From Limnomonas spitsbergensis (Eukaryota; Chlorophyta; Chlorophyceae; Chlamydomonadales), in the NCBI GenBank assembly GCA_037349105.1, contig JAYJMM010000113.1, positions 2,170,001-2,234,000 of the forward strand: a DNA stretch of 64,000 bases. Reading direction: 5' to 3'. Made by a program: the position numbers and the translations under genes. The number at the start of each line of letters is the position of its first letter. Position 1 is the first letter of the stretch. Below are positions 5,405 to 64,000 of this stretch, one piece after another. Under the pieces are notes generated by a model. That model was given only the letters and a program-made list of their open reading frames with translations. It was not told where the DNA came from and did not search any database.

Positions 5405-8400
5405 CAACACGTTTCTGATTGGACCTTGGAAAGAAGCGTATACGACGGCGGGTCTTCTGGTCTTCGAGAGATTTCCGGGGTGGGTGTTTCTGCAAACATG
5501 CTACCTTCGTGGCGGGGTCATACCCTCTATGAAGACACCGTATAAAAGAAACATGTATAATAGCATATGAACAGAAGGGCATGCGCACGTTTGTTTTTTT
5601 GCGGAGTGTTGGCGTAATGTGCGAAGGACATTGCGCTGCACTAGCGCACAACAATATTTTGTGGTACAGAAAGTGTAGGTTTTAACATGAGGTTGACATT
5701 TCGTTATTTCTTTCGATTGATATCCTGTATAGAGCAACATAAACAAAGCATCGCGTCCATTCAGATTTCCAAGCAAGACACAGCCATGGCTGCAGCCATT
5801 CTGCCTACCAACCTCCCCAACCGACCGCTGTTGGAAATCCTGCTGTTGAAATGTCACGAAGCAGACAATGACGAACGGGTGATGTTTCGAAATTGCAAAT
5901 AAGGTCTGTTACACCACCTATCTCGTCCTCTCATGGAGTAAGCGACACAAGCCAGAAAAGTCATGGCTCGTGTCTTCGTTCGAATCCTGGGCGGGCAACA
6001 CACATGTTATTAGTATTACAAGAGACAAGGAAGGTAAAAACAAAAACAGCATATAGAAGATTAAAATGCATACAAGAGCAGATCAAGTAGTACATTGCAT
6101 ACCATACCGTAACCACGTCCTCGTCTTCGAGGAGCTCCTCCTCGCCGTCCAACACGGTACCTTCTTCCTCGAGTGCATCGAGTGACGCCATCCTAAGGAG
6201 GTGTAAACTGTAGTCAGTCATTGTTGAATACAGGACATGCAGCAACACGGTACCTTTTACTCCCACCACCGCCAGGTATATGAGATTAAGCAAGAGACAT
6301 GTGAAATACGCCAAAAGACACTTCTTTTTCAATAACAAATTAGAAGGAAAGATCTCGCAGGATCACCTTTCTTGTACGCGCTCACTGCAGGGTTTCATGA
6401 AAGGTTTCATGACACATTAGGGTTTCATGACACATCACAGATGCGGATGATCGTTCTGTTCACAATCAGGGTTCCACGATTTCTTCCTTACAGTCAGGGT
6501 TCGGCGACGAATAAGTCTGGCTCGCTTCGGCAATAGAGCGTCACAACATGTACCTATACAGATGCTCAACAAAAGCCTTTGCAATTTAAGCATTTACTTA
6601 CACACACGGGCTCACACTTTGAAAAGGTGCGACTCAGCTACGTCAAACTATACAAACCCGTAGGGTATGAACACCCCGGAGCCAGACACCGGAACGTGAG
6701 GCCGCGTAATCTTGCGTGGTTCAGGGTTTACTGCGATGTTGCCAAATGTGTGCCTATATGTTATCTGCGCTGTTACTGATGCTGTTGCTGCTGCTGATGA
6801 TGATAAGGATGATGATACGGATGACTAGCTCGCGAAGTGACCAAGGCCGAGGCGGTCCGCGGCCTTTCTGCAGGATCACCCTCATCACTATTGCCCGATA
6901 CGTTTATGGGAAGAAACATGTTCCGGTACCCAAGCCAAAGGGCAGTCCTGCAATCAAAGACGATTATAGGGGTATTGCCGTCGGAACTGCCCTATCCAAA
7001 TTATATTCCCTCGTCTTGATTCTTGGGCAGAAAGTCAGGGTTTCAGAGCCGATGGCCAGGCAGGTTTTCGGCATGGACGGGGAACACCTGATAATGCTTT
7101 CATTCTTAACCACATTATTGAAAAATACCATTTGGAGAAAAAATCGATTTTTGCTGCTTTCATTGATTTTAGGAAGGCATATGACTGCATTGACAGAGAT
7201 TTATTGTGGCGGAGTTTACAGAGCATGGGTGTGCACGGCCGGATTTTAGAAAGTTTGAAGGAGATGTATCAGGATGTAAAAATCCGTGTACGGGTTGGTG
7301 GTAAACTGGGAGATAGTTTCTCCTCCTTTATGGGTGTTAAACAAGGAGACCCGCTGTCCCCTCTATTGTTTGGCCTGTTTATCGACCGTTTCGAGAAGTT
7401 TGTCGCAAATGAGTGCCCTGATATTGGCGCCCGTCTTTCACATGCTTTGGTCAGAGTTTTACTGTATGCTGATGATCTGGTGTTATTCGCTGAATCGCCG
7501 GATGATCTGCAAAAACTTCTTGATGCTCCCCATATTTTTTGTCGCCACAATGCCTTGACAGTCAATATAAAAAATCTGAAGCAGTTGTTTTTAACCAGAA
7601 CTATTGCAGTCATTTGGCATCTCTGTCTTATGACGGAAGCGTTCTTGATATTAAGCCCTTTTTCATCTACTTGGGTATGTTATTTGATGAGGCAGAGGGT
7701 ATGAAGGGAGCAGGTAGACGTTGTGTCAACAAAGGGAGGGCAGCTTTGTATGCCATGGTCCGGAGATGTCATGAGCTTGACATACACAATGTTCACATTA
7801 AATGTCATCTTTTTGACTCTTTAGTGAAGCCTATTCTGTTTTATGGGTGTGAAATTTGGGGACCAGGTCTCCTTGCGAAAGGAGTTGGCTTGACAGATAC
7901 TGGTTTCTCTAGAGATTTGGAGGTAATTCACAAGGGTTTCCTTAGGCAGTGTCTGGGTCTTCGCAAGTCTGTGGCCGAGTATGTTCTCATGAGTGAACTG
8001 CACCGTGAACCCCTTATCTTAAGTCTTTTTCAGCAGACCCTGAGTTTTTGGAATATAAATAATCTGAGGCCTAACAATGACCTTGTGAAAATGGCTATGC
8101 AGGAAAGTTGTGATTTGGCGAAGGCTGGAACTTCACTTTGTTGGGCTGGTTTTCTGTCTACCATATTGATGACTCTGGGTATTGATTTATTGACTGCATC
8201 AGCCAATACCTCTTTGGATATTGAGGTCATTGTGAATTCAGCTAGGGATCAGTGGCTTTCCAAAATTTCCAGGGACATGCCACGTACGGCCCTGTCAGTA
8301 CGTGCTGCTCCTGACTCGGAACGCTCGGGGTTCAAATTGTTTACGTTCTCTAAGTGGTTCCAAATTAAGCGTGATGTGAAGGAGACTTTCTGGTACAATT

Positions 8401-9266
8401 TGAGTAAGCCTAATATTATTTTCGCTGTAGCCCGGTATCGGATGGGGTCGCATTGGCTGAATGTTGAGACGGGGCGCTTTGAGAAACCCTGTGTGCCTCG
8501 TAGCGAGAGGATTTGTAGATGTTGCAATCTTAAATGTCGGGAGGATGAGCTTCACATGATTTACTGCCCGTTCTATACAGACCTTCGTTTTCAGTTTAAC
8601 CTTACTTTCCATAATTTCCTAGAGGACGAGGATGAGGCCATGAAACGGTACGTAAATGGAGTGTGGGGCAAACTAAATGCAGCGGATTCTGCATATGTGT
8701 TCTGGAAGATATTTGGTTGTTTTAGCTTTCAGTGTATGCTGAAAAGAGAGAATCATCTCAAAACTCTGCCAAAATTCCTGTCTCCCCCCTAACTCTCTAG
8801 GCGGTGCTCAAACGAACTCTTATGCACCCACGTCATGTTTTATGGCTGGGGCTTATCTTCTGCTCTATGGGGTTCATTCCCACGCCACTGTCGTGGTTGT
8901 GTGCTAGTTGCTTGCCCAGGGGGGTCACTGGTTTTCGCTTTCTGTCCTAGTGTATCAAGTGCTTGTACCGGTTTACGGGCACATGTCCCATGCATCAAGT
9001 GTGATGCTCTGTTGGACTGTAAAAACTTCACAAACTTCACATGCGGCGATTAACATTTGTGAATAAAAGCATTTCGAAGGCCTGAAAACTCTCCGGGGCC
9101 TTTGGAATTTCCGGAAAGGGGGGGATGTCCCCGGAAAGACAAGAGACGTACTGTACGATTCATGTTGGTCTAAAGGGCCCGGAGATTTTCCGGGGTCCAG
9201 TGTTTCTGCTCAAAACGACCCGGAAACAACCCGGAAAGTTTCCCAGGTCCAATCAGAAACGTGTTG
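5405..9266. mobile_element. 3.9-kb terminal-inverted-repeat element (Harbinger-like ends, TTA duplication)
   Basis: The segment begins CAACACGTTTCTGATTGG and ends with the exact 21-bp reverse complement (9246-9266). TTA triplets lie immediately outside at 5402-5404 and 9267-9269. A 3-bp TTA target duplication is typical of the PIF/Harbinger superfamily. No transposase frame was found inside. The interior instead carries a LINE remnant (about 6866-9080) and filler with short repeats (AACACGGTACCTT near 6149 and 6244; AGGGTTTCATGA copies near 6390-6430). The simplest reading is a non-autonomous element into which a LINE inserted. Its end sequence is related to the element at 11030-11665. Confidence 0.65.
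6866..8792 (+). pseudogene. LINE (non-LTR) reverse transcriptase, 5'-truncated and frameshifted
   Basis: Reverse transcriptase motifs appear in the family order: PVPKPKG and DDYRGIAVGTALSKLY, then GFRHGRGT, AAFIDFRKAYDCIDRDLLW, GVKQGDPLSPLLFGLFID, and the catalytic LLYADDLVLF. A long C-terminal region ends in a zinc-binding motif, CRCCNLKCREDELHMIYCPF, common in L1-type elements of algae and plants. The frame slips near 7035 and again in an A-run near 7567-7573, where the conserved VNIKKSEAVVF is split between frames. The endonuclease region is absent upstream. The 3' flank contains AATAAAAGC near 9060. The catalytic box is intact but the protein cannot be made as one chain. Confidence 0.85.
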
Positions 9267-12950: not shown

Positions 12951-14564
12951 ACCCCTACCCTAAAACATACACCTTTTAAAACCTGAACATACACGCTAAA
13001 CCCACTGGCGGTCCTGACTACCTCCACCCCGAACACGTCCACCTCGCACACGCACACCTCCACCTACACGATGGGGCTTCCTTTCTCTTACTGTCCCCCG
13101 TACACAAACACACCCATTTCTTGCACCCTACACTTTGTGTCCAGACTCCAAAGGTGTAAATATCATTGACACTTGTTGTCCCCTTTCTGGGTTTTCCTGA
13201 CGTACTGTCTAACAGGTTTTTCATTTTCTCCCTTGAGGAGGATATGGACGGGCTTGGTTTCTTCTAAAGTCCTTAAGTGTATCGGATGGTCTTTTTACGT
13301 TTGTTCCTGTCCTTTCCCCTCGAATCTCGAATTTATCTCCTCACGACCAGACGGTTGGGTGCCCATGTGGCAGATCCTTTGCATCATGGCCCAAATGTGT
13401 AGGTCATTGACTTGCTCCTACACCTCCCCTAAGTACACCTATATTTATATCGTACCCCTCAACTTGTGGGACTGGAATAAGGGTTAATGACACAACAATG
13501 TCGGAGGACGATTTAAAGCTGCTGATTAGTTTGTTGGCCCAGCGTTTTCATACCTCTGATCTTGGCATAAATACCACCATTCTGTCGACCATGGCTTGAA
13601 AACAATGCAGCTATCAGTTCCATGCATGTCTTTTAAATCCTGGAGCTTCGTTAGGTTTGGGACCTTGCCGTGTCACCGTCTGACAAGCCCTACCTATCTT
13701 GCACTTCATGGCCCTGCTGAAGAGTGGACTGCTAGCTGCGCACACAGCCCCCACCCGGAGAGGATATCATCAACAATATTTACCCCAGAACGCGCCATGC
13801 TCCAGCGGCAACCCCCCGGCTGTCAAATTAATATATAAAGTCAACTTCGATGCAGAAACGACTTTGTCCGCAGAGTCTCTGTAGGGAGAGAAAGTGGCAA
13901 AACAACTGAAGATGTTGTCATTGCGCCCACCACCTCCCCAGTAGGAAGGAACATGTATACCCTGTCGGCGCGGATCCCTCAAACGGCTTTTGCCTCAGGC
14001 GACCTGGTCCGATGGAAGGCTCAGGTATGGCCTGCAATCCTGCATGTCCTCACTAAATGCTGTAAATTTTGTAGTCATGTTTCAAAGTCCTGGCGACGAC
14101 ACTTTACAAACGTGAGCATATGCAAGACAGCAATAAAGGGGCACACCTAGAAGCTGTCTGGAAGCTAGAAAACTATTGCAAGGATTGCATCAATACATGA
14201 TTCTTAAACATGGAATGCTGGATCTGGATCTTTCTTTTAAGTTTGGATCTGTTTGGTGGGTCTGGATTTTGCATGGACTTGTCAAGCTCCGTGTCTTCGT
14301 CTTAACTGCTCGTTCATCGCGGAAAGTGATGGCATTGTGATAATCTGTGTTTTCCCTTGAGCCTTCACATGTACTTACTGACTGGGTAGTTGAGATTTAA
14401 AATGCAATTCCTCATTTTATGTCCAGTTTGACAAACTCACAGGTGGCCCTTCCTCTTAACACACGACCCCCTCCCCGAAGCAGCCCTTCCTCATTAAAGG
14501 CTGAACATTTTCACTGACCTTTAGTCCAATTAAAATCACCTTTTCTTCTCCCCACACCCAATCT
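12951..14564. other. No gene seen
   Basis: The region has CACAC-rich tracts near 13030-13110 and short frames under 105 codons, without recognisable domains or consistent splice structure. Confidence 0.45.
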
Positions 14565-14858
14565 GATGTACTCTGATGTATCCTGATGTGCTCTGATGTA
14601 CTCTGATGTATCATGATGTGCTCTGATGTACTCTGATGTACTCTGATGTTTCCTGATGTAATCTGATGTAATCTGATGTACTCTGATATATCCTGATGTA
14701 ATCTGATGTACACTGATGTATCCTGATGTGCTCTGATTTACTCTGTTGTATCCTGATGTACTCTGATGTACTCTGATGTATCCCCGGTGATGTAGGCTAA
14801 TGTACTCTGATGTATCCTGATGGGCTCTGATGTACTCCGATGTGTCGTGATGTTGAAG
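14565..14858. repeat. 10-bp minisatellite, block 1
   Basis: Tandem CTGATGTACT, CTGATGTATC and CTGATGTGCT decamers with few interruptions. Because 10 is not a multiple of three, all frames give the same pseudo-peptide periodicity (HQSTSEHIRIHQ on the minus strand). Confidence 0.9.
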
Positions 14859-15280
14859 TGATCTACTGCCCGGGAGGGGACAAAGACTACTGATACTAGG
14901 CTAGAGGCTGGGCTGGAAGACTAGGGAGGCGCACGTGGTGCGTGGGAGCTATGTCGACTCCGGGACTGGGGTGTGGGCTGAGGGGTTTGCAAGTGGGAGC
15001 CAAGTACTGAGCTTGGTAGAATGAACTTATCTCTGTCGAGAGACTCCCGGTTTACTAGCGGGGCGCACTATGTTGGCGCTCGGCGGCAGATGGCAAGCCC
15101 GGATAAGGCTCTAAAGGCTGGAAGGTTCATGTCGTACAACCGAAGGTTGTTAGAGATATTAACGACACGCAACTGCTCTCACACTGTTAGCTACGCAGTG
15201 TGACAACAGTTGTGTTTGCGTACTGGATACTAGGAGACATGTACTGAGTTTACTGGACTGGGGGGTCCAAGACCACTACA
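14859..15280. other. Insert splitting the minisatellite, with a perfect hairpin
   Basis: About 420 bp of unrelated sequence interrupts the decamer array. It contains the inverted repeat TCACACTG (15179-15186) and CAGTGTGA (15196-15203) around a 9-nt loop. Clear terminal repeats or a target duplication were not found, so its nature (transposon, solo LTR or original flank) is open. Confidence 0.5.
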
Positions 15281-15718
15281 GATGTACGCTGATGCACTCT
15301 GATGTATCTTCATGTGCTCCGATGTATCATGATGTGCTCTAATGTAGTTTGATGTATTATCTTGAACTCCGATGTTCTCTGATGTATCATGATGTGCTCT
15401 GATGTACTCTGATGTATCCTGATGTACGCTGATGTACTCTGATGTATCCTGATGTATCCTGATGTACTCTGATGTACTCTGATGTATCCTGGTGTGCTCT
15501 GATGTACTCCGATGTGTATGTCCTGATACTGTACGCTGATGTACTCTGATGTATCCTGATGTACTCTGATGTACGCTGATGTATCTTGATGTGCTCTGAT
15601 GTACTCCGACGTGTCCTGATGTACGTTGATGTACTCTGATATATCCTGATGTATGTATGCTGATGTACTCTGATGTATCCTGATGTGCTCTGATGTACTC
15701 TGATATAATCGGATGCCC
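15281..15718. repeat. 10-bp minisatellite, block 2
   Basis: The same CTGATGTRYN decamer family as block 1, slightly more degenerate, with a few ACGCTGATGT variants and insertions near 15515 and 15645. The minus-strand open frame of 187 codons across it is a translation of the repeat. Confidence 0.9.
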
Positions 15719-23435: not shown

Positions 23436-24608
23436 TCAGGTCTCAGCAGACCCTTCAAGTGCTGACTCTTCTTCCTCCTTTGCTGCTTCTTTGGCCACCT
23501 TAGCCCTTCTGGCTATTGCCCTCGGGGTGACATTGGCCTCTCCCCTGCCAGTGGTGTACGAGATGTCGTACAACCCGTTCGCCATTGGCCTTGCGATGCC
23601 CCGCTCCATTTGCCTTGTTGCTGGGTTGGTGGCCATAACTTCCACCTCAGGCTTGTCCATGACATTGGCCTCTGGAGCCGTTCTGGCAGCCGCTCTGGCT
23701 GCTGGGCTAGGCTGCCCCTGGCCCCCCGCACTGTGGGTTTCTGTAGCGGGCCCTGTTATCGCAGCGGGCCCAGCTCCCTTGTCTTCAAGCGCGCACCTTG
23801 GGCACACCCACTCGCCTGCAGGCACCTCTTCGAGTGCCGGTACCAAGCAATCCATGTGCCAACCTGTGTTGCAGACATCGCACAAAAGCATCACCTCCCC
23901 ACAATCAGGCAGCTGGCACACCTCGCACGACAGGCTGTTATTGGGCCTGGTTCCACTGAAATCAACCACTCCCCTGAGATTGGGCAAGTGGCATGGAGAA
24001 CAATTGACAGCATTCTCTGTTACTGTGAGGCCATCTGCCCCCTCCAGAACCAAGGTTCCCGTCGCCCCCATCTTTTTCACCCTGAGAATCTCAGGCCTAG
24101 CCTTGGGATCGAGGCTGCGGCGCTCAGATGAGTACCTCACATACACATAATCTCCCTCTGCGAAACGCCTGACCTGGGGGACATATCCTCCCCCACGTAT
24201 GCGTGCATACCGCAGCTTGTCGCGGTGCTGCGCAATTTTCAGATGCTCACCCGCGACTGGCAGTGCCTCCTTGATCCTGGCCACTCTGGCCAAGAGCAGG
24301 TCTGCCGCCTCCTCTGTTGTTGCCACCTTGGCTGTGTTCCACAGGTCCGCCCCCACTCTGGAGGGGAAGGTGGGTCTCTGCCCGAACAGCACCTCGTACG
24401 GCGCCATGCGCGTGGCCTGCTGCGACGAGCAGCGGAAGCCTAGAGCCACCCAAGGCACCATTTTGTCCCAGGATTCGTCGCTGCTGCCTTCCTCGCAGCA
24501 CTTGCGCATGCCTGCTTTGAGGGTCTGGACATCCCTCTCTGACAGCCCGTCTGCCTGGGGATGGTTGGCAGAAGTGGTGCGGTGATCAATGAAGCAGTCC
24601 AGCAACAT
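23436..24608 (-). CDS. Integrase C-terminal half with PHD finger (gypsy pol, 3' part)
   Basis: Starts just after the nonsense codon at 24630 in the same frame. ANHPQADGLSERDVQTLK contains the third catalytic residue (Glu) of the DDE integrase core. A target-site or GPY/F-like module follows (FAEGDYVYVRYSSERR...). A canonical C4HC3 PHD finger lies at about residues 204-252: CEVC, CDVC, H and C in GWHMDC, then CPRC. PHD fingers read histone tails, so this module could steer integration to chromatin marks (inference). The C-terminal tail is Ala/Glu-rich. Confidence 0.85.
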   Translation of the reverse strand: MLLDCFIDHRTTSANHPQADGLSERDVQTLKAGMRKCCEEGSSDESWDKMVPWVALGFRCSSQQATRMAPYEVLFGQRPTFPSRVGADLWNTAKVATTEEAADLLLARVARIKEALPVAGEHLKIAQHRDKLRYARIRGGGYVPQVRRFAEGDYVYVRYSSERRSLDPKARPEILRVKKMGATGTLVLEGADGLTVTENAVNCSPCHLPNLRGVVDFSGTRPNNSLSCEVCQLPDCGEVMLLCDVCNTGWHMDCLVPALEEVPAGEWVCPRCALEDKGAGPAAITGPATETHSAGGQGQPSPAARAAARTAPEANVMDKPEVEVMATNPATRQMERGIARPMANGLYDISYTTGRGEANVTPRAIARRAKVAKEAAKEEEESALEGSAET

Positions 24609-24629
24609 GTCTTGGAATTCACCCTGGAA

Positions 24630-25679
24630 TTATGTTCCCTGGTCTGTCACGACTTCTGCGCAACCCCCGAATCTTGCGACTACATTTTGAAAGAAAGCCA
24701 AGGCCGTCACATCTGACGCCTTGCTTGGAATGGGGATCAACTCCACCCATTTGGAATAATGCTCCACACAAACCATCACAAATCGATTGCCCCTGGAAGT
24801 GGTCGTGAATGGACCACACAGATCAACTCCCCATCGAAAAAACAACCCTTCAATGGGTAGCGGGTGCAGGTCGGGCTGCGTGTGATTGAACGTGGACGCC
24901 CTGGCCCTGTCACACACACCACATTCCTGCACCACCTTCTTGACTGCTGCTCTGAGTCCCCGCCACCAGTGTTGCTGCATGACCATGAAAGCCGTGCGGT
25001 GGCTGCCAAAATGGCCCGTACCAGCATGGGCTTCCTGGATCACTGCCAGCCTGTCCTCTGGCCTGGGCACCACGCAACGTCTACCGTCAGGCATGAGTCT
25101 CATCAGTACTCCTCCCCTCTCTGGTTCCCACTGGAATGGAGCGGCTCTGCGCTGTACCCTGGTCTGCTCTCCTCTCTCTGCTCCTGGAGCATGTGTCTTT
25201 TCGCGGAGAAACTGCAACACAGGCTCATCTGCCCATACATCCACCCTGGCCGATGGCCCTGCATGACATCCGGGAGGGTCTCTCTCACCCCCTTTGTCCC
25301 CTGTCACTTTGCTGCAAGCTTCTACTTTTGCCACAGGCTCGTTCCCACCTGGTTCTTGTGCTGCGTCGGCCCAATCTGCCGCAACAGACTCTCCCAGGCA
25401 CTGCCTGTACGACGCGGCCACCTCCCCACTGCCAGAGCACGCGTTTCCTGCGGTGGCAAGGGCGTAGTGGCTGGACATTAAAGTTGCACCAAGCGCATGA
25501 TCCCTGTCCGGACCCTGCAGCCGTGCTCTGCGTTTCAACTCCTCAGGTATGATTTTAGCACACGAGAGCGCGACATTGAGCCATGCTCCTAGTGCCCATG
25601 AATCCATGCACCTGCCCAGGGCTGCCCTACATGGCCTGCACAGCCTGAGCCGGTAGGCACATTGTGTCCACTCCTGCAT
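24630..25679 (-). pseudogene. Integrase N-terminal half (HHCC zinc domain and first two catalytic Asp)
   Basis: LMPDGRRCVVPRPEDR leads into the HHCC zinc-binding domain (AHAGTGHFGSHRT ... ECGVCDRAR). The core follows with FRWGVDLCGPF (first Asp) and AEVVTDQGT (second Asp). The next codon is TAA where gypsy integrases usually have Glu or Gln in DxGT(E/Q)F. The frame then continues intact as FQGEFQDM, so this is a single nonsense change. Its frame is +1 relative to the RT/RNase H frame, with a 53-bp overlap. Confidence 0.85.
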
Positions 25680-27354
25680 GTGAGTGCGGTGGCGTCACGC
25701 GGGGCAGGTCAGACAGTACATCACTGATCATATTCCTGGCTCGTTCCCGGTTGCTGAACGCCTGCTCTGTCGTGCTGACAGGCTGCGCCTGCTCATCGTC
25801 CTCAGTAGCGGCGTATGATATCTCCTGCCCCAACGAGGCTGTTACGCAAGCTGCCTCTGCAGCCCGCAACATCTGTACTCTCCTTCTGCCCTCCTGCGCC
25901 ATGCGCACCATCTGGTCTGCGTGCCACTGGTTCACTCTGCCCAACCCCGTGAGCAAAGCTACCTGCTTCCCACTTGCCTCCTCCTTCACTGCTGGCTCGG
26001 GGGCGGCTGTATCAAGCCTGGCCCCCGTGCGATCAGCTGCGGATGGGAGTGGCGACCTGGACGGGATGTCCGCATTCTGGTGGCATGCTCCTGAGCGGTG
26101 GACAATGGTAATGTCCAACTCTTGGAGCATGAGGGCCCACCTAGCGTGCTGGCCCACCAACGTCTGATTGTCCATGAGATACGTGAGCGGCTCATGATCA
26201 GTGATGAGATGCACCTTGCACCCAAACAGCATGTGGCGATACGTGCGTGCTGCATACACTGCAGCCAGCATCTCCCCCTGGAATGAGGAGTAGTTCTTCT
26301 CGCTCTTTTTCAGGGATCTGGATGTGCATAATGTGCATGCCACCATATATTCCCGCCCGCTGTCGTCACACTGCCCTAGCACTGCGCCAATGCCCTGCTT
26401 AGAGAAATCTGTGTACAACAAGAAGGGCCTTGGCGGCCCTCTGCCATCGGGCCCTGTCCCACTGTAATCTGGTCTGCGCAGAACTCTACCGCCCTCACAC
26501 ATCTCCGTTTTGATCAGCTGGAACGCCTGCGACTGCTCTGGCCCCCACACAAACGGGACCCCCTTGACCAGCAATGCGTTGATGCATGCCGCCTTTTTCG
26601 AGAAGTCTGGGATGTAGCACCGGTAGAAATTCAAGAATCCCATGACCTCCTGAATGTTCTTAACTGATGCGGGCTCTGGCAACGCCATAACCGCTGCTAT
26701 CTTAGCTGCGTGCGGCGTAAGCCCCTGGGCCGACACATTGTGACCCAGGTACTCTACCGTCGCACACCCAAACAGGGACTTGTCGGGGTGCGCCCTCAAC
26801 CCGACACTGTGGAGCATGTCCAACATCAGCTCCACATGCCTGATGTGTTCTGCTGGTGTATCACTGTACACTAGCAGATCATCAATGAATGCCACGCAGA
26901 ACGCACTCAGGCCTGCCCTGGCAATCTCCTCTTCCATCATACGCTGAAAGAAGGGAGGCCCATTGCGCAGACCGAAGTTGAGCTTTGTGTACATCCACAG
27001 CTCAGGCCCCATCCAGAAAGCTGTCTTAGGCTGGTCCTCAGCCTTGATCGGGATCTGCATGAATCCCGACCTAAGATCAACCTTGCTGAATATCTTGGCC
27101 GTGCCCAGGTTCTGAAAAATAGTCTCCATCCGGAGGATGGCAAACTCCTGCTTAGCCGTACGCAGGTTTAACCTGCGCATATCGTGCGCTATTCGGTGGT
27201 CAGTCCACTCGCCCGTCTCAGCACTCTTTTTGGCTGCTACCACTGAGTTGGCTGCAAACTTGATAGGCCCCCCCTGTGGCACATTGACGATGATACCTGC
27301 CTGTATCATTGGCTGGCATTTTTTCTTAAAAATGGCTGCCTTGGGAGGCGGCAT
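25627..27354 (-). CDS. Reverse transcriptase and RNase H (gypsy pol)
   Basis: RT motifs: IFSKVDLRSGFMQIPI (catalytic Asp), LNFGLRNGPPFFQRMM, AFIDDLLVYSD (catalytic Asp pair) and YLGHNVSAQGL. The RNase H active-site set is complete: FLLYTDFSKQGIGAVLGQ (Asp), SFQGEMLAAVYAARTYRHML (Glu), LITDHEPLTYLM (Asp) and CHQNADIPSR (His/Asp region). At 575 residues it is the longest intact piece of this element. The ATG at 27354 is not a natural start: the same frame continues upstream beyond a TAG at 27415. It would copy element RNA into DNA in cytoplasmic particles. Confidence 0.92.
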   Translation of the reverse strand: MPPPKAAIFKKKCQPMIQAGIIVNVPQGGPIKFAANSVVAAKKSAETGEWTDHRIAHDMRRLNLRTAKQEFAILRMETIFQNLGTAKIFSKVDLRSGFMQIPIKAEDQPKTAFWMGPELWMYTKLNFGLRNGPPFFQRMMEEEIARAGLSAFCVAFIDDLLVYSDTPAEHIRHVELMLDMLHSVGLRAHPDKSLFGCATVEYLGHNVSAQGLTPHAAKIAAVMALPEPASVKNIQEVMGFLNFYRCYIPDFSKKAACINALLVKGVPFVWGPEQSQAFQLIKTEMCEGGRVLRRPDYSGTGPDGRGPPRPFLLYTDFSKQGIGAVLGQCDDSGREYMVACTLCTSRSLKKSEKNYSSFQGEMLAAVYAARTYRHMLFGCKVHLITDHEPLTYLMDNQTLVGQHARWALMLQELDITIVHRSGACHQNADIPSRSPLPSAADRTGARLDTAAPEPAVKEEASGKQVALLTGLGRVNQWHADQMVRMAQEGRRRVQMLRAAEAACVTASLGQEISYAATEDDEQAQPVSTTEQAFSNRERARNMISDVLSDLPRVTPPHSHAGVDTMCLPAQAVQAM

Positions 27355-55731: not shown

Positions 55732-56691
55732 CTACTTCACCTGGACTTCTTCGATACTGTTGACAAGATCTCGTAAAGCCTCGACTTCTGAGGTACTTCT
55801 AGACTTCTTGGGACGACCTTGGGCGAATGTGGCCGTTGATCTGCTGTGGTGAGTCGCTTGCTTGGGGACTTCTGGTGACTGAAGATATCTCTGATGAATC
55901 AGATGGTCGACTTGGAGCCAAAGGAAAGGCTGTAGGTTGGATATGTGATGGTGGGTTGGTGGTAATATCCAGCTGTAAGGCTCGAGATATGCCTTGTTAA
56001 GAGGCAGGAATAACTCTAATTGCTGCAGATAGTCGACTGTTGGCCTACATGCTCTGCCAGCTTCGTATCAGGAGACTTGTTGATGTTTATAGGGTCGCTG
56101 TTGGCCTAACTGCTCTGCCAGTTTCCCCTTAGGGGGTGGTACCACCTTGGTTGTACCGCTTGGCATTCGTCGTTATAGAATACTCTTTTCAGTAGACCAG
56201 AGATAGAGCGCAGCTCGTCGTTGAAGACGCTTGCGTTCTACAGGGGTCGGCATAGGCAACATTGTGTCAGTGGTACGCCTCAAATATTGCATAGCATTAT
56301 TATCCAACCAGATATCTGCGAATGAATGAGACTCTTCCTCACGGGTCATGGGCTGCTCTATGAACTCAGCCGCTAAGGACTGAGCTGCATGTAAGATCAG
56401 GGAATCTCCAGCAGCAAATAAATGATTAAGCTGCTGAGATATCTGATCACCATCCCCCCCCCAGCTCCAGTCCTGAAGTGGCAAAGGAATGAGGGAGAAA
56501 ATTATTGAAAGCAGAAAAAATTTCCTGCGAAGGCGGAACAGCTGCAAATCGAACTGCGAGTCCAACAGCAAGCAGATGACTGACAGCATTAGCATCAAAA
56601 GCGCCTCCAACGATCCTGTGACGCACAGAAAAGACCAGATCTTGGCCAGCAGTACAGTCAGTCGCATATCCCATGGCACGTTCACGCTCAT
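55732..56691 (-). pseudogene. RNase H-integrase linker and integrase start, decayed
   Basis: FADIWLDNNAMQYLRR, then PTPVERKRLQRRAALYLWS, is the typical gypsy linker preceding the integrase zinc domain. An in-frame TAA at 56173 interrupts what should be ..L-RRMPSGTTKVVPPPKGKLAEQ. A TGA at 56068 follows, then about 110 further open codons to TAG at 55732, containing an AT-hook-like GRPKKSR. No HHCC or catalytic Asp residues are left. TTGGCCTA(C/A)..GCTCTGCCAG occurs twice (near 56040 and 56101), so KLAE.xGQQ is duplicated in two frames. The hydrophobic first part of the open frame (above about 56460) is a shadow of the methyltransferase gene. Confidence 0.6.
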
Positions 56692-57853
56692 GAATAGTCA
56701 GAGCGTGTCTAGTGACAACTCCTGTTTGATCTGTTTCCAAAACAAGTCCAGGTTCATATTCAGGGTTGGGACGGAACGCATAAGATTCAATTCTTGCAAC
56801 CATTGTAGGAAAAACTCGTAGAGGTTCGTTCAATATATTGGCTGGATGATATGGGTACCTGTTAACTTTGAAACATGTACGGGGTTCTCTTCCATGATCC
56901 AGTATGTTGGTCAGGCGCAATGAATCATCACGAACAAAGGACATCATCACCAACTGCAAAGAAGTGGGGGAACATATATTCTGCCAATAGTTACGCAGGC
57001 GGTGGGCATAGCTGCTTACAGCAACCGCGTCAAAGCAAACTGGGTGTCCCAGCCTCTCTGTAAGTTCCTGGAACCCTTCTATCATAGCCTGCGATTTTGC
57101 AATAGCAAATTGTACAGCAACATTCTCAATGAAGTACATGGGTGGTCGTCTCCCTTGCTGCATATGCTGGAGAAACCCTAGAATTTTAATAAGAGGAAAA
57201 AACGTGGAACTTTTCTCTCCTTGTAATCCTGTACGTCTTATAGCAGAAGACAGGTCAGTGCACATAAACCCTGCTGTTAGCATCCATTGGGTCCCATCAA
57301 GGCATCCAATGTCAATGAGATGTCTTTCATTAATATTGTAAACATTCTGCGGCAACCGATTGAATGTGTTAGCAATAGCATCATGACTCAGAAGATTGGG
57401 ATATTCCTCCATGAGCGACTTAAGTCTGTGTTTGGCACAAACCCTTGCGCCATTGTCAATGTCAGCATAGTAATAGTGGTTGATGCGAATACCATTTCTC
57501 AGCATGCATTCTAATCCTCCGCACATACCACCAAAAAGCTCAATCAGAGAAACACCTTCCTGCACAGCAGTAAGAATGCTGGTTTGAGGAACATGTGAAG
57601 AATTTATAGACTGAATTCCCTTCCCCACTGGATTGCCTTCTTGTGAATGCTCCTGCACCTGCAGGGAATTATAGTGAGAAGGAGGCAATTCCTGCAAATG
57701 CAGGCGGCAATCTTCAACTCTTGACGAAGCTGTTCCTCTCAAGGCTTTTTTGTTTCTCAGACAGAGAGTCCATCTGTGGTACATGAATACGGGTGGAAAA
57801 TGAAGCAATGCCATTAATTTCGAAATCAAAAGCAGCTGCAGTATCAAATGCAT
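56447..57853 (-). CDS. DNMT3-like cytosine-5 DNA methyltransferase within gypsy pol
   Basis: Transfers methyl from S-adenosylmethionine to cytosine C5. Motif I LIELFGGMCGG (residues 103-113) binds the cofactor. YYYADID (128-133) supplies the motif II acidic residue. Motif IV GFMCTDLSSA (195-204) keeps catalytic Cys198, with Met in place of the usual Pro. Motif VI is FIENV (241-245), motif VIII AVSSYAHRLRNYW (278-290), motif IX LTIHERERAMGYATD (385-399), and motif X-like RIVGGAFDANAVSHLLAVG (413-431). CTDLS, the AHRxRxxW pattern and the closing GxAFxxxAVSHL resemble DNMT3/DRM enzymes more than bacterial Dcm or DNMT1. All key motifs are present, so the domain could be active. It overlaps the RT/RNase H frame by 140 bp in the +1 frame; the first 80 or so codons are probably not native. 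The frame ends in a G9 run where one indel leads into the integrase linker. Confidence 0.88.
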   Translation of the reverse strand: MHLILQLLLISKLMALLHFPPVFMYHRWTLCLRNKKALRGTASSRVEDCRLHLQELPPSHYNSLQVQEHSQEGNPVGKGIQSINSSHVPQTSILTAVQEGVSLIELFGGMCGGLECMLRNGIRINHYYYADIDNGARVCAKHRLKSLMEEYPNLLSHDAIANTFNRLPQNVYNINERHLIDIGCLDGTQWMLTAGFMCTDLSSAIRRTGLQGEKSSTFFPLIKILGFLQHMQQGRRPPMYFIENVAVQFAIAKSQAMIEGFQELTERLGHPVCFDAVAVSSYAHRLRNYWQNICSPTSLQLVMMSFVRDDSLRLTNILDHGREPRTCFKVNRYPYHPANILNEPLRVFPTMVARIESYAFRPNPEYEPGLVLETDQTGVVTRHALTIHERERAMGYATDCTAGQDLVFSVRHRIVGGAFDANAVSHLLAVGLAVRFAAVPPSQEIFSAFNNFLPHSFATSGLELGGGW

Positions 57854-60086
57854 TACAGCAACTCATTTCATCCATGTCATAATCAGGATGCACGAGTGTA
57901 GTAGCTAACGAATGAATCTGGTTTGTAACAGATAGACCAAACGTGGGAGAGGGCCAAATAGCTCGGGTTCTAGGTAGGCCTGGCCACTCGGTTGGTGAAG
58001 GAAAAGACGCTTCAGCATCCTCAGAAATCATTTGTAATCCAAAAACAGCTTGCTCCTTATCAGGAGCTGGATCAGGATCAATTGCAGGACCAAAGGGTTC
58101 TATGGCAAATCCCCACGGGACTGCACTCTGGGGTGTTCTTGACAAACAAGCAGCCATGAGGGAATACGCTCTTTTAGAACTATTAGCAGTCAAATCAGTG
58201 TCTACACCTGATCCACAGAATGCAGAGTTGTAGTAAAAGGGCCACGTTGTCGCGAAGTGACTCTCTTTTGTGCCTGTCCAGTCCAGATCTGACTGAACAG
58301 GGAACCTGCTGGGGACATCGGCAACAATATGTTTAACACCCGGTTTGTATTCAAGCTCATAGGAGAATGGCGAAAGCATGACAGACCAGCGAGCATACTG
58401 CCCTTCTAACTCTTTATTAGACATTAACCAAGACAATCCTTTATGATCGCTTATTATTAAAAACGGTATTTTAGCCCCAAGCAGATAATAACGGAAGGCT
58501 CTCACTCCCCATACTGCGGCTAACATTTCACCCTTGTAAGACCCATAATTAGCCTCATGCACATTGCAAGTCCTGCTGATGCAGGCTACTAGATATTCCT
58601 TCCCATCATCATCCTTCTGACCAAGGACAGTTGACATGCCTTTCTGGGACCAATATGTGTGAAGGATGTAACGGCGATTTTTATCAGGTGTGCGCAATGC
58701 GTTACCAGGTTTGCAGAGTTCATCTTTTAGGTGTTCCCATGCCTTATCCCTCTCAGCTGTCCACAGCCAAGGAGTGTCCTTCTTAAACAACTCTGTAAGG
58801 GGGCTGGAGATGACAGAAAAGTTAGGAACATAGCATCGGTAATAATTAGCAAAGCCAATTACGCGGCGCAGTTCATGCACAGTAGTGGGCGTGGGTAAAG
58901 CCCTGATTGCCAAGACCTTGGTTTCACTAGGGGAAATACCTGTTGTTCCAATCATATGACCTAGGTACTCCAGGCTGTTGAACAGAAACTTGCATTTTCC
59001 TGGATGCACCTTCATATGACAGTTCTTGAGGGCAGCAAACAAGAGTTTAAGCGCCGCTTTGTGCGACGCAAGATCTTTGGTAAAGACCAGGATATCATCT
59101 ATAAAACATACACAACAGTGATCAAGGCCTGCTTCCGTTATTACAGTATTCATGACTCTCTGGAAGTATGCAGGCATATTAGTAAGGCCAAAGGTATTTC
59201 GGTTCGTTTTCCAACACCTATCATTCCACCAGAACGCAGTCATGTCCCTGCATTCTTCAGACAGTGAAGTTTGACCGAATCCTGATTTCATATCACAAAC
59301 AGAGAACACAGTACAACCTTCAGTCCTTCCAAACAATTCTTCAGGCAAGGGTAAAGGGTACACGTCGGGAGGTGTAAAGGCATTGATGCCTCCAGATGCT
59401 TTACCATAATTAATACAGCATATTTTATCGGTCCATGCACCAGTCACGGGATCTTTTTTGGCAGCTATAACAGCTTCATGTATCATAAGGGGCCGGGGAC
59501 ACTCACTGATAAATCCAGCTTCCATGAGAGGGGTCATGTGTTCGTCCATAACTTCCTTCTCCATGGGCGACCTCCTGCGAGCTTTTCTGAGAATAATACC
59601 TGGGGGCAAAGTTATAGTTTCTCCAGGGGGACCTATGGTGAAGGGAAGAACTGATCCTTCATAACATGTCAAGTCAGACAATTTATACGCACTTTGCGCC
59701 TGGATAATATCTCCTAGCTCGACCTGGAACTGCTGCCTCTCAATCTCGCTAATATCAGCATGATTGCCCAGGGTCCACCCTTGTTCCATCTTGAAATGTT
59801 TATTAGGTTCTACAGGGTCTGCTGGACTGTCAGGTGTCATATTATCTAGGGACCAAGATCCCTCAATATGGATTCCCTCATGAAACTCATCAGGTGACAA
59901 CAGGTCGTTCAGCAACGCTGGATCTGTGTAATGCTGAATACCTGCTGCGTAAGAGATACCTGTCTGCGTGACCAGTGAAGGTCCTAGTACTTCTCTTGAA
60001 TACTGGTCTCGTGCAATGCTGCGAGTTAGATCAAATACCTGAGCTGTGGCATTGTGAGTTGTCATACTGTTAACAGGTGTAAACAT
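57714..60086 (-). CDS. Reverse transcriptase-RNase H polyprotein of the methyltransferase-bearing gypsy element
   Basis: 790 codons. The pre-RT block has GWTLGNHADISEIERQQF. RT motifs are FSVCDMKSGFGQTSL (Asp), NTFGLTNMPAYFQRVMN, VCFIDDILVFTKD (Asp pair) and YLGHMIGTTGISP. In RNase H, the expected first Asp reads Tyr (LHTYWSQKGMSTVLGQ; TAT where GAT is expected). The Glu (SYKGEMLAAVWGVRAFRYYL), the second Asp (IISDHKGLSWLM) and the HIVADVPSR motif remain. The lost Asp should abolish RNase H cleavage. The C-terminal 180 residues after RNase H are acidic and unassigned. No gag or protease precedes the ATG at 60086. Confidence 0.92.
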   Translation of the reverse strand: MFTPVNSMTTHNATAQVFDLTRSIARDQYSREVLGPSLVTQTGISYAAGIQHYTDPALLNDLLSPDEFHEGIHIEGSWSLDNMTPDSPADPVEPNKHFKMEQGWTLGNHADISEIERQQFQVELGDIIQAQSAYKLSDLTCYEGSVLPFTIGPPGETITLPPGIILRKARRRSPMEKEVMDEHMTPLMEAGFISECPRPLMIHEAVIAAKKDPVTGAWTDKICCINYGKASGGINAFTPPDVYPLPLPEELFGRTEGCTVFSVCDMKSGFGQTSLSEECRDMTAFWWNDRCWKTNRNTFGLTNMPAYFQRVMNTVITEAGLDHCCVCFIDDILVFTKDLASHKAALKLLFAALKNCHMKVHPGKCKFLFNSLEYLGHMIGTTGISPSETKVLAIRALPTPTTVHELRRVIGFANYYRCYVPNFSVISSPLTELFKKDTPWLWTAERDKAWEHLKDELCKPGNALRTPDKNRRYILHTYWSQKGMSTVLGQKDDDGKEYLVACISRTCNVHEANYGSYKGEMLAAVWGVRAFRYYLLGAKIPFLIISDHKGLSWLMSNKELEGQYARWSVMLSPFSYELEYKPGVKHIVADVPSRFPVQSDLDWTGTKESHFATTWPFYYNSAFCGSGVDTDLTANSSKRAYSLMAACLSRTPQSAVPWGFAIEPFGPAIDPDPAPDKEQAVFGLQMISEDAEASFPSPTEWPGLPRTRAIWPSPTFGLSVTNQIHSLATTLVHPDYDMDEMSCCNAFDTAAAFDFEINGIASFSTRIHVPQMDSLSEKQKSLERNSFVKS

Positions 60087-60167
60087 GAAGGTCCGTGACC
60101 ACGGTATGTTCTCTCTGAGACGTTTCGGAATAGAATCTTAACGTTTCGGATATAATGTAATTTCGAC
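60087..60167. promoter_or_regulatory. 81-bp divergent spacer with a repeated ACGTTTCGGA motif
   Basis: Separates the start of the minus-strand pol frame from the ATG of the plus-strand OTU frame. ACGTTTCGGA occurs at 60120-60129 and 60141-60150, 21 bp apart, followed by TATAATG. It could be a bidirectional promoter or simply an element junction. Confidence 0.4.
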
Positions 60168-63100
60168 ATGAGACGACAAGACAACCCATATTGTCAAGCC
60201 TTGGAGGACCGACAGCTGGCTGCCCGAAGCTCGACCAACCAGGTCAAGACGAGAACAGCCAGTAAGGTCCAACGTTTACTTTTCTGCATCATGCACGTTG
60301 CTGCATACCTGCTGGCGTGGCCTAAAGCTTGCAGGGCAGGATACCCGAACCACTTTTCAGTCGAATCGTTCAAAGTTCGGGCCCTGTCTTGGAAAGTGAT
60401 CAATCCAGAAAGCGCTGTAACCAGGAGAAATCAAACACCAGACTTGACACACTGGGCACATCATGTTGACAACTTTATCCGCCATGCATCGTCGACCCAA
60501 CTTTTCAACGCAGAGATGCAGGTCGTGGGCATCGGTATCCTCACTGACCCACAGGACACGAACGTGAGAGATTGGGCTTCCCCACGGCCTCCTTTGAACT
60601 TAGCTTCGGCATCAAGAACCTGCATTTTCGAACGGGAACAGCTGACAGTCGACTCTTTGATTGCATCCTGTGCCAATCCCCACGACACGCGCTGCATACA
60701 TCCCTCTTCTGCCTTGAGGCCATGGCCAACCTTTCACCTTCTCGGCTTTTACAACCTTAATCTTTTGCTCCAACAGTTGCCTTGTGCCAGAACGATAGTG
60801 GAAACGCTAGACCTGACTTGTTCTTCGCGTATTGGCAACATCTTGACCCGCCATGCAAACATGCCGTGTCGGCAACTTCCTCACACAGGAGTGCACGCTA
60901 AATGTCATGCCGTTCCCTGCACTTACGGGGAATACCGGACTACCTCGCCTAACTTTGTACATGCTTGCAAATCGAATTGGGCTCCGCATACCTGCGCCAC
61001 TTCTGAAACGTCGGGAACGTCGATTGATATAACACCACACGTAAATAACAGCTCTTTCTATGCCCACATACCGCTGGGGGCCACCAACACGTGCTATCTG
61101 ATCGCGTACATGAACAAGATCACAGTGCTCTACAACGTGGACGATACTACGCAATCCTACCATACGCCCCTCCATGCCCCCGCCAGTGCCATCAGACCAT
61201 GCATGAGACTGCGTACCGAAACTTTTTCCATTCACCGGTTTGCAGAGGTACTCTCACACTATCACGTTTTCTCACTAGAACTCATCGCCCTCAGCCTCGC
61301 CGTTGTGTTATTTACTGCCTTCATAGGCCATATATGCTGTATAACTGCCGATCTGACTCACAAAATCCACCACCCCGACATGTCTTATCTCAGACACCCT
61401 GAGGCATCAGATCCCTGCCCTACCGATGTCACAACCCCCCATACCTCAGACATCTCCCTGCCCGAAACCTTTGATCCTCGCCCTCCCCAAACCTATGACA
61501 TTTCTCTCCACGAAACTTCGGATCCCTGCCCCCCTCAGACCTCTGACACTTTCCTCCCCGAGACCTCTGATCCCTGCCCCCCCCAAACCTCTGACATTTT
61601 CCTCCACGAGATCACTGATCCCTGCCCCCCTCTATCTGGCACCTCAACTCTTCCCCCGCCCGAGTCCCATGCTCTCCACTCGTCCGAACTATTTGACCTA
61701 TATTCAACAACCGAGCCCTCTAATCACTCCACCCCCGATGTTCCTAACCTAGGCCTCCTTGACAATTCTGACCTTGACTCACCCGGGGACCCCAATCATA
61801 GACCCTCAGAAACTTCTGACCTCTCCCCCCCTGAGGTCCGAAACCCTTGTCCCTCCAAGACCTCTGCTCTTAGCTCAAAAAAAAGAAAGAAAAAGGAAAA
61901 CAAATCGAAAACTGAGAAAAGAAAATCTGACTTGCGCCACATGCAACATAAATCAGCTAGAAATAACTACATCAAAATCAAGTATATTCATTTTGCGCAT
62001 ACGAATGCTCTCAGATGGGGCCTAAAATACAAGATGGGCAAGCAGATTCGGCACATATGGAAACAGCCTTTTCCAGTGAAGGGATTCAAAAGGCTCGTGA
62101 AGAATATGCCCCCTAGATACGTAAGTACGCCCACCTCCCGCTGCCAAAGTAAAAAGGCCCCTAAGGTCGAAGAGGCTAACTATAATGATGGATGCACAGT
62201 CTCCGAAACATGTTCTTGCCCTCCCCGCCCCCCTCCACCCCCCAATTCTTCCCCCCCGGAGATCCCAAATTCCACCAACCACGAGACCGATCTTGGCCCC
62301 CCTGATACCTCTGACCTCTGCCCCCTCGACACCGCCTCCGGTCTCTGTTCCCCGGAGACCCCTGGCCCAAAAAACTCCAGGACCCATGATGCCGGCCCCC
62401 CCAAGATGTTCAACCCCAGCCCCACCGAGGCCCCTGACTATCCTGCCTTCCGTAAGACCTCTGACCCTGGCACCACAAGATTCAGTTCCACACATCTGAC
62501 GCCCACCTCCCTCTGTAGCTGTAAGAATACGTTTAATCCGGTCGGGGGTGCTAAACCACGTCCCCCTAAAAACAAGGCTGCAAACCAAATCCAAACAAGA
62601 ATTACCCCGATCGACAAACTTTTGGCAGAAGAGCACCAGCTGAAAGCTGACCATACGTATAAATTTGTAGTAGGTGACTGCTACTTCGACTGCTTGCAGT
62701 ACCTCACTGGATACCCCAGCTTAAAGCTGAGACAAGCCGGCATCCTAAGCCTCCGGCATTCCATAGCAGCGAGTCTCGAAGACGCAATTACAAAAATCTT
62801 CAACATGCGCACGGTCAGACAAAGTGCCAATATGTCCCCAAGACAATACATGGATGCCATGCAAAAGAGCGGAGCAAACGCAGGACTCTGGGCTGACACC
62901 CTCATCGTCCACTTTACAGCACTGGCCATTCACACGAAGGTCCTCGTCTACATGCTTGATCGCAACGGACACATGAACGTACAGACCTGGGGGGCACAAG
63001 AAACTGACCCGGTATTGGGTGAACCCAAAGAGGTCAGGATTATGTTCTCAGGCCCGATGGACGCAGGGCACTACACACCCCTCCTTCCTTTAAACACGAG

Positions 63101-64000
63101 CCTACCGGGGGCAGCCAACGCTATAAGCGACGAAGCCACACATACCCTCCTTAATCAGCTACACGAGAAGGTTATCAAGGACCACACAGCAGAGGTGCCC
63201 CATACAGACCAACTCGAAAACATCATCCGGCGTCTGGCTGCGGATGCTGAAACGGGCCATGCACTAGAGATGCAAAACAAGACCGACGAGCTTGAGCAAC
63301 AGGTGGCATTCATCTTCCCACAAATCCCTGCAGACAATGATTCCAGAGCGCAACTGAGGGCAACCATAGTAAAAGTAATAGATCACATGCACGCTGCTGC
63401 CAACCGCGGCCGGACGGCGATTGCAGATCTCAGACTTGAACGCCGGACCTACGCCCCATCTAAAAAAGAAGACTCAGATAGCGACTTCGAGATCCTAGAA
63501 ATGCAGACTAAACTGCAGGAGGCGAACATGATTCGGAACAAGAACAAAAGGCCTGCAATGGTCCCAGTGGGGGGGAAACAAACAAGAATACAGCCTCCGG
63601 GGAATATTCAACGGACAAAAATAAACAATATTCCGACCGCCCCGCATTCCACGGTCGATGCTGGATATAGCCCCCCCGCCCCCTTAACAGGGCAATATAA
63701 CCCTGATAAAACAAAACCAAAGAAAACTATAATGGAGAAAAGAAGCTATATCAGAAAAATTATAAAGAAAAGACAAATTAAAACTCCAGGAGAGGACGAG
63801 CAAAACAAAAAACGAATGATCCAAACACTGATGTCAGCATTTGTAAAAGCCACGACTCCCCAGACAAGGAAGGCACCAGAACATTTGATACCAGAAGAAG
63901 AAGCTGACAAAAACAAAGTGAAACCACAAGAGGAAGCTGACAAAAATAAAATAAATAACGAGGACGACCAGCAAAAAGTCAACAAAAACACGACACACAC
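60168..64000 (+). CDS. Giant membrane polyprotein with OTU-like cysteine protease domain (runs off right edge)
   Basis: Open for at least 1277 codons from ATG 60168 with no stop. Residues about 34-52 (LLFCIMHVAAYLLAWPKACRA) form a signal or anchor segment. About 53-368 is a Cys-rich ectodomain with candidate N-glycosylation sites (NQT, NSS). About 370-392 (LELIALSLAVVLFTAFIG...) is a transmembrane helix. Pro/Thr/Ser repeats follow (ETSDPCPPQTSD, about 16-residue period), then a basic nuclear-signal-like run (SSKKRKKKENKSK), a second Pro-rich stretch, and an OTU fold at about 828-975. Its catalytic motif is VVGDCYFDC (Cys838), with GLWADTLIVHFTALAI and MDAGHYTPLLP (His968). The 130-residue Cys-His spacing suits OTU proteases, which cleave ubiquitin-like linkages or polyproteins. 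A helical, Lys/Glu-rich tail with EEADKNK repeats reaches the edge. An envelope-like head on a protease-bearing chain suggests a viral or retroelement polyprotein, but no replication domain is visible. The OTU call is strong; the whole-protein role is unknown. Confidence 0.8.
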   Translation, partial: MRRQDNPYCQALEDRQLAARSSTNQVKTRTASKVQRLLFCIMHVAAYLLAWPKACRAGYPNHFSVESFKVRALSWKVINPESAVTRRNQTPDLTHWAHHVDNFIRHASSTQLFNAEMQVVGIGILTDPQDTNVRDWASPRPPLNLASASRTCIFEREQLTVDSLIASCANPHDTRCIHPSSALRPWPTFHLLGFYNLNLLLQQLPCARTIVETLDLTCSSRIGNILTRHANMPCRQLPHTGVHAKCHAVPCTYGEYRTTSPNFVHACKSNWAPHTCATSETSGTSIDITPHVNNSSFYAHIPLGATNTCYLIAYMNKITVLYNVDDTTQSYHTPLHAPASAIRPCMRLRTETFSIHRFAEVLSHYHVFSLELIALSLAVVLFTAFIGHICCITADLTHKIHHPDMSYLRHPEASDPCPTDVTTPHTSDISLPETFDPRPPQTYDISLHETSDPCPPQTSDTFLPETSDPCPPQTSDIFLHEITDPCPPLSGTSTLPPPESHALHSSELFDLYSTTEPSNHSTPDVPNLGLLDNSDLDSPGDPNHRPSETSDLSPPEVRNPCPSKTSALSSKKRKKKENKSKTEKRKSDLRHMQHKSARNNYIKIKYIHFAHTNALRWGLKYKMGKQIRHIWKQPFPVKGFKRLVKNMPPRYVSTPTSRCQSKKAPKVEEANYNDGCTVSETCSCPPRPPPPPNSSPPEIPNSTNHETDLGPPDTSDLCPLDTASGLCSPETPGPKNSRTHDAGPPKMFNPSPTEAPDYPAFRKTSDPGTTRFSSTHLTPTSLCSCKNTFNPVGGAKPRPPKNKAANQIQTRITPIDKLLAEEHQLKADHTYKFVVGDCYFDCLQYLTGYPSLKLRQAGILSLRHSIAASLEDAITKIFNMRTVRQSANMSPRQYMDAMQKSGANAGLWADTLIVHFTALAIHTKVLVYMLDRNGHMNVQTWGAQETDPVLGEPKEVRIMFSGPMDAGHYTPLLPLNTSLPGAANAISDEATHTLLNQLHEKVIKDHTAEVPHTDQLENIIRRLAADAETGHALEMQNKTDELEQQVAFIFPQIPADNDSRAQLRATIVKVIDHMHAAANRGRTAIADLRLERRTYAPSKKEDSDSDFEILEMQTKLQEANMIRNKNKRPAMVPVGGKQTRIQPPGNIQRTKINNIPTAPHSTVDAGYSPPAPLTGQYNPDKTKPKKTIMEKRSYIRKIIKKRQIKTPGEDEQNKKRMIQTLMSAFVKATTPQTRKAPEHLIPEEEADKNKVKPQEEADKNKINNEDDQQKVNKNTTH

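Follow-up and report, generated by a model that had tools for sequence, protein, structure and literature searches.

The locus and its open reading frame

In a 64,000-nucleotide stretch of contig JAYJMM010000113.1 of the green alga Limnomonas spitsbergensis (positions 2,170,001 to 2,234,000; hereafter the window), the right-hand end is occupied by a long open reading frame (ORF) on the plus strand. It represents the N-terminal third of the ORF carried by a repeated non-LTR (long terminal repeat) retrotransposon, or long interspersed nuclear element (LINE). The features of the locus are collected in Table 1; positions to the right of the window are given in L009 numbering, in which L009:8660-8680 corresponds to contig C113:2241660-2241680 and L009:6150-6500 to about 69150-69500 in window numbering.

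An earlier note, made from the letters of the window, had claimed a single real plus-strand frame of more than 3.8 kb, and this has been confirmed. There is no stop across 1277 codons between 60168 and 63998, compared with a longest open run of 265 codons in 300 first-order Markov simulations, and the remaining two plus frames of 60168-64000 carry 57 and 73 stops. In 2000 simulations of the individual segments, the head and the tail were never open, the OTU-like part was open once and the basic segment twice; two C-rich repeat segments, open in 7/2000 and 85/2000, are less telling, since their openness is explicable by composition. Non-coding codon statistics had been named as grounds for abandoning the frame; three-base periodicity instead lies beyond nearly all simulations, its value being reached by no more than 10/2000 for every segment but the basic one (298/2000). 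The closest in-frame stop upstream is at 60153, and beyond the window the frame continues, reaching 1718 codons between stops (1714 when counted from the ATG at 60168), with its stop codon at L009:2310-2312 on the same contig. The frame had been described as unterminated, an appearance that arises because the edge of the window cuts it ahead of the stop at L009:2312.

Downstream domains and the complete element

Extension of the contig to the right in search of a reverse transcriptase (RT), as the earlier note had advised, reveals an APE endonuclease, an RT, an RNase H and a restriction-like endonuclease (RLE)-like part next downstream. The suggestion of a Dualen-type LINE is thus borne out on the same contig, while the viral-polyprotein setting that had also been entertained gives way to the opening portion of a LINE ORF. 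In the window copy, three more long frames separated by frame breaks follow the first, and the whole coding stretch, about 3.8 thousand codons by span, runs in the order head, linkers, OTU-like domain, APE, RT, PHD, PCIF1-like stretch, RNase H, CCHC and RLE-like domain.

A Pfam run on four pieces of this copy returned Exo_endo_phos (APE; PF03372, 1.4e-10), RNase_H (PF00075, 3e-12) and RVT_1 (PF00078) on two pieces (2.1e-10, and 1.8e-4, the second below the cut-off), with PHD (3e-4) and PDDEXK_9 (0.005) below the cut-off. PCIF1_WW matches at L009:6150-6500 (2.8e-8), a stretch lacking the [NDS]PP[YFW] motif, and a LINE-1 endonuclease is among the PDB matches of the first piece (4.2e-4). The C-terminal piece holds a CCHC motif (CPLCGHPDSAGHITGGC) and a QPD..EFKY stretch, both kept in a second, C20-like family nearby (L010), and the RLE identity of the PD..EFK region is assigned from these motifs. 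The 3' part of that second element (RNase H, CCHC, RLE-like) occupies L010:5354-7000, some 6.7 kb to the right of the element in the window. In a further copy, C122, one frame of 2848 aa runs unbroken from the first repeat linker into the stretch before RNase H, and this ORF holds both APE and RT (domains recognised by eye).

The divergent family C20 carries a PCIF1_WW match below the cut-off (0.0019) and a Josephin-like domain after its OTU-like domain (L013:9364-9921), which may place two deubiquitinase-type domains in tandem; the Josephin matches are weak (PF02099, E 0.0022, 18.3 bits against a cut-off of 26; sole PDB match Josephin-2, E 1.1). In the literature searched, no paper on PCIF1 in LINEs was recognised, nor any on a Josephin-like domain in a LINE, at which no search was aimed.

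Copies, ends and insertion site

The element belongs to a repeated, mobile family. The source genome (260 Mb, 124 contigs) holds at least 42 match rows, which by our grouping represent about 19 places, a lower bound because only 36 of 1847 first-look candidates were scored. Identities among the copies range from 100% to 39%, the low values often coming from stretches read across frame breaks. Among the loci examined, nine places match the 5' query; six of these share a 5' end that lies no more than a few bases from 60152, and the flanks of these six copies are unrelated. The short leader also contains a minimal start-stop upstream ORF (ATG 60155, TAA 60158; 60155-60160) in 6/6 copies read.

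The 3' end lies at L009:8660, 11,509 bases from the 5' end and 7.7 kb beyond the window. The region before it folds better than 200 of 200 shuffles (z -4.1), and a hairpin with a TTTC tail stands at all four 3' ends read, those of the window copy, of C122 and of two C20-like copies; in the last two the stem is shorter and the loop different. No LTRs were seen in a self-comparison of the window, which excludes the 3' two thirds of the element.

The two copies of the target-site duplication match over 22 columns at 91% identity, a score reached by 0/200 shuffles, and the LINE has therefore been inserted into a degenerate Ty3 element. The RT frame of this target is open up to 60137 and changes near an A6 run (by eye), its C5-methyltransferase-like stretch matches PF00145 below the cut-off (4.4e-4), and beyond the LINE, at L009:9128-10000, a minus frame resembling gag (by eye) shares the strand of the Ty3 pol. 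The start codons of the two elements face apart with 81 bases between them, a closeness that follows from the insertion.

Table 1. Features of the LINE and its insertion site
Feature	Position	Strand	Basis or remark
Insertion target: degenerate Ty3-type pol	about 56160-60137 (56447..60137)	-	RT-RNase H and C5-cytosine-methyltransferase-like stretch
Target-site duplication, left copy (TGTAAACATGAAGGTCCGTGAC)	60078..60099		22 bases
Filler, 52 bases	60100..60151		between duplication and common 5' end; absent from other copies read
5' leader, 16 nt	60152..60167	+	common to six copies; start codon at base 17
N-terminal 1277 codons of LINE ORF	60168..64000	+	stop-free frame, simulations, contig extension
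Hydrophobic, signal-like segment	60276..60338	+	residues 37-57; mean hydropathy 1.57 (37-55); hydropathy and position
Cys-rich head region	60339..61280	+	residues 58-371; 12 Cys in 58-372
Transmembrane-like helix	61281..61337	+	residues 372-390; strongest hydrophobic segment, mean hydropathy 2.39
P/S/T/D-rich linker	61353..61868	+	residues 396-567; holds 24/48-bp tandem repeat
Basic region	61878..62207	+	residues 571-680; net charge +24
Second proline-rich linker	62208..62567	+	residues 681-800
OTU-like cysteine protease domain (probable)	62625..63122	+	residues 820-985; motif conservation, low-confidence model
Charged tail	63123..63998	+	residues 986-1277; leads into APE domain beyond window
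Target-site duplication, right copy	L009:8660-8680 (C113:2241660-2241680)		21 bases

We read the element as a LINE because it is a repeated family with a fixed 5' end, a duplication and this set of domains; RT and endonuclease stand in one ORF (C122), and the hairpin/TTTC 3' tail is of the LINE kind. Judged by its domain set of APE, RLE-like endonuclease and RNase H, it appears to be of the Dualen/RandI type, since APE plus RLE is the signature of that group.

The N-terminal head

The Cys-rich region, repeat linker, basic region and charged tail listed by the earlier note are all present, the tandem repeat of the first linker occupying 61435-61632. The head topology that it proposed stands: the hydrophobic N-terminal and transmembrane-like segments exist and recur in a divergent family, but the labels signal and transmembrane derive from hydropathy and position only. 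Its description of the head as envelope-like gained no support: sequence searches found no homologue of the head and no match to an envelope glycoprotein. Direct searches likewise gave no relatives.

The head diverges fast between families. Family C114 keeps residues 4-73 at 56%, hydrophobic segment included, and C20 has in common only the short stretch R-x-C-I-x-EREQLTV of the Cys-rich region (BLASTP 5e-5). Yet C20 possesses a hydrophobic segment of its own (hydropathy 1.61) close to where one frame begins and, in the next frame, a transmembrane-like segment (2.26) preceding a basic region and the OTU-like domain, and so keeps the head topology with almost no sequence identity. The C20 copy also carries, between the head parts, extra sequence that resembles another element by eye. 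Kept topology with drifting sequence is what would be expected of an exposed ectodomain, but could also be displayed by a gag-like structural part. No paper recognised in the literature searched describes an envelope-like or membrane head on a LINE, the original Dualen paper being outside that search.

The OTU-like domain

The domain contains the motifs GDCYF and GHY, with Cys838 (62679-62681) as candidate nucleophile, His968 (63069-63071) and a conserved Trp908-Ala-Asp910. C838, W908 and H968 are invariant in 3/3 families and C842 is variable. The ratio of nonsynonymous to synonymous substitution rates (dN/dS) is 0.22 against family C20, at 57% identity, and 0.36 against C114, values which indicate a domain under constraint. 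A Foldseek search with the predicted domain placed OTU structures as the top three of 196 PDB matches, VIA-align gave OTU domains in 31 of 35 among the matches listed, and the predicted helix/strand order fits that usual for OTU domains, all three comparisons using a model of low confidence.

Two results limit the OTU assignment, namely that no sequence-profile test gave a significant match to an OTU profile and that the structural model is poor; the usual nucleophile motif of OTU proteases is D-G-N-C. The earlier proposal of an OTU-like domain thus retains its conserved motifs and a leading rank for OTU in Foldseek, but lacks profile support, and the structural match that was to decide it was obtained with a model of low confidence. 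From motif conservation and that model, OTU membership is likely, though without a significant sequence match.

Alternative explanations

Within the same LINE, the head may be neither secreted nor membrane-bound, with its hydrophobic stretches folded as buried helices into an ORF1-type domain, gag-like or RNA-binding, that acts in the cytosol or nucleus. We regard this as possible, if somewhat unlikely. The failure to find a homologue, the rapid divergence, a signal-like segment that starts 36 residues in from the N-terminus and a single cluster of N-glycosylation motifs (residues 293-296) would all suit such a domain, whereas the transmembrane-like segment followed at once by a linker and a strongly basic region is the pattern of a type-I membrane protein, recurs in C20 despite the near absence of sequence identity, and follows a head with 12 Cys. 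It is a good deal less probable that the OTU-like domain is some other cysteine-protease-like or non-enzymatic domain with a GDC/GHY pattern by chance. The lack of variation at C838, W908-A-D and H968 across three families, the OTU-specific ranking in an unbiased PDB search and the second deubiquitinase-like (Josephin) domain beside it in C20 argue against chance, set against the failed profile tests and a D-C spacing unlike the usual motif.

As to the frame as a whole, it could be imagined as a divergent envelope-like ORF of the neighbouring minus-strand Ty3 element, given the two opposed start codons 81 bases apart and the precedent of an env in frame in Burro, as passages of PMC6431247 describe it. 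However, the frame runs into APE with LINE-type RT and RNase H next, other copies share its 5' end in unrelated flanks, the insert is bounded by a target-site duplication with the gag-like minus frame (by eye) at its far side, and third-position composition differs between the LINE frame and the Ty3 element. The downstream domains, common 5' end and duplication refute this very improbable explanation. Least credible of all is an endogenised RNA-virus polyprotein with a glycoprotein head and an OTU protease, which the order of head and OTU would fit, as would the OTU-like proteases of several RNA virus groups noted in PMC3968130; it is refuted by the APE, RT, RNase H and RLE-like domains downstream, and the LINE-type 3' end and duplication also stand against it.

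A proposed mechanism and its significance

The element is probably a Dualen/RandI-type LINE, full-length at 11.5 kb, that entered the Ty3 element by target-primed reverse transcription (TPRT) and works through a membrane head and an OTU-like protease. The polyprotein would be made at the endoplasmic reticulum with the head in the lumen, and the OTU-like protease, APE, RT and nucleases would be kept on the cytosolic side. The OTU-like activity, in C20 also the Josephin-like one, may then remove ubiquitin from the polyprotein or cut it, whereby the RT/nuclease part would be shielded from the proteasome and released for nuclear entry and TPRT. More speculative, and in our view rather improbable, is a LINE lineage with an enveloped-virus-like front module (an ER-targeted Cys-rich ectodomain, a membrane anchor and deubiquitinase-like proteases), whose machinery is made on membranes and perhaps packed into vesicles travelling between cells.

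To our knowledge, LINEs are regarded as nuclear-cytosolic parasites without a membrane phase. If true, a LINE ORF opening with a secretory-type head, whose topology but hardly its sequence is kept between families, would mark an initial step toward a virus-like LINE, and the reason for ubiquitin/SUMO proteases in several kinds of transposon would become testable. The gathering of domains in one LINE is extreme: its 11.5 kb accommodate two nuclease domains together with an OTU-like protease, a PHD finger and a PCIF1-like stretch.

Other features of the window

Elsewhere, a tandem array at 30930-54737 repeats a 1587-bp unit about 15 times with 99.5-99.8% identity. Most units bear a 486-aa ORF on the minus strand and a CCHC knuckle (by eye), in line with the Ty3 pol at 23.4-27.4 kb; the array is either a real gag amplification or an assembly artefact. 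That pol (23436-27354, minus strand) is of Ty3 type, and its integrase is followed by a PHD finger (9.9e-10). Another LINE RT, frame-broken, lies at 6716-8792 (RVT_1 1.2e-19), and arrays of a TCTGATGTAC-type 10-bp repeat at 14562-15715.

Comparison with known elements

Kojima and Fujiwara reportedly described a cysteine protease in Dualen in 2005. According to passages of PMC4640811, Dualen encodes an APE as well as an RLE, and RNase H is present in Dualen/RandI; those of PMC8226300 place Dualen families in all core-Reinhardtinia green algae studied. The window element shares with Dualen/RandI the APE, RLE-like endonuclease, RT and RNase H; beyond the group as these passages describe it, it has an 11.5-kb span, the signal-like, Cys-rich and transmembrane-like head and the PCIF1-like stretch, and one family of the present group (C20) a Josephin-like domain. 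RLE-type LINEs with a Ulp1-like protease (PMC4640811) likewise bear an N-terminal deconjugase-type cysteine protease, but theirs is Ulp1-like rather than OTU-like, they are without APE, and the passages mention no membrane-like head.

The giant Gypsy-like Burro elements of planarians, in the passages of PMC6431247, also join an envelope-like part in frame with enzymes in a giant retroelement. Burro, however, is an LTR element with env between gag and pol, whereas here a LINE carries an N-terminal head that has no sequence link to any envelope protein. An OTU-type protease also occurs in proteins of Ginger1 transposons and Helentrons, according to passages of PMC2836005 and PMC6431247, but those are DNA transposons without RT-based copying. 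KnitGypsy-Dnmt3 (PMC5890265), whose Ty3 pol frame includes a cytosine methyltransferase, resembles the insertion target and not the LINE. Against this background, the Dualen-type LINE itself is known, and the part that appears to be novel is the signal-like, Cys-rich and transmembrane-like head on a LINE polyprotein.
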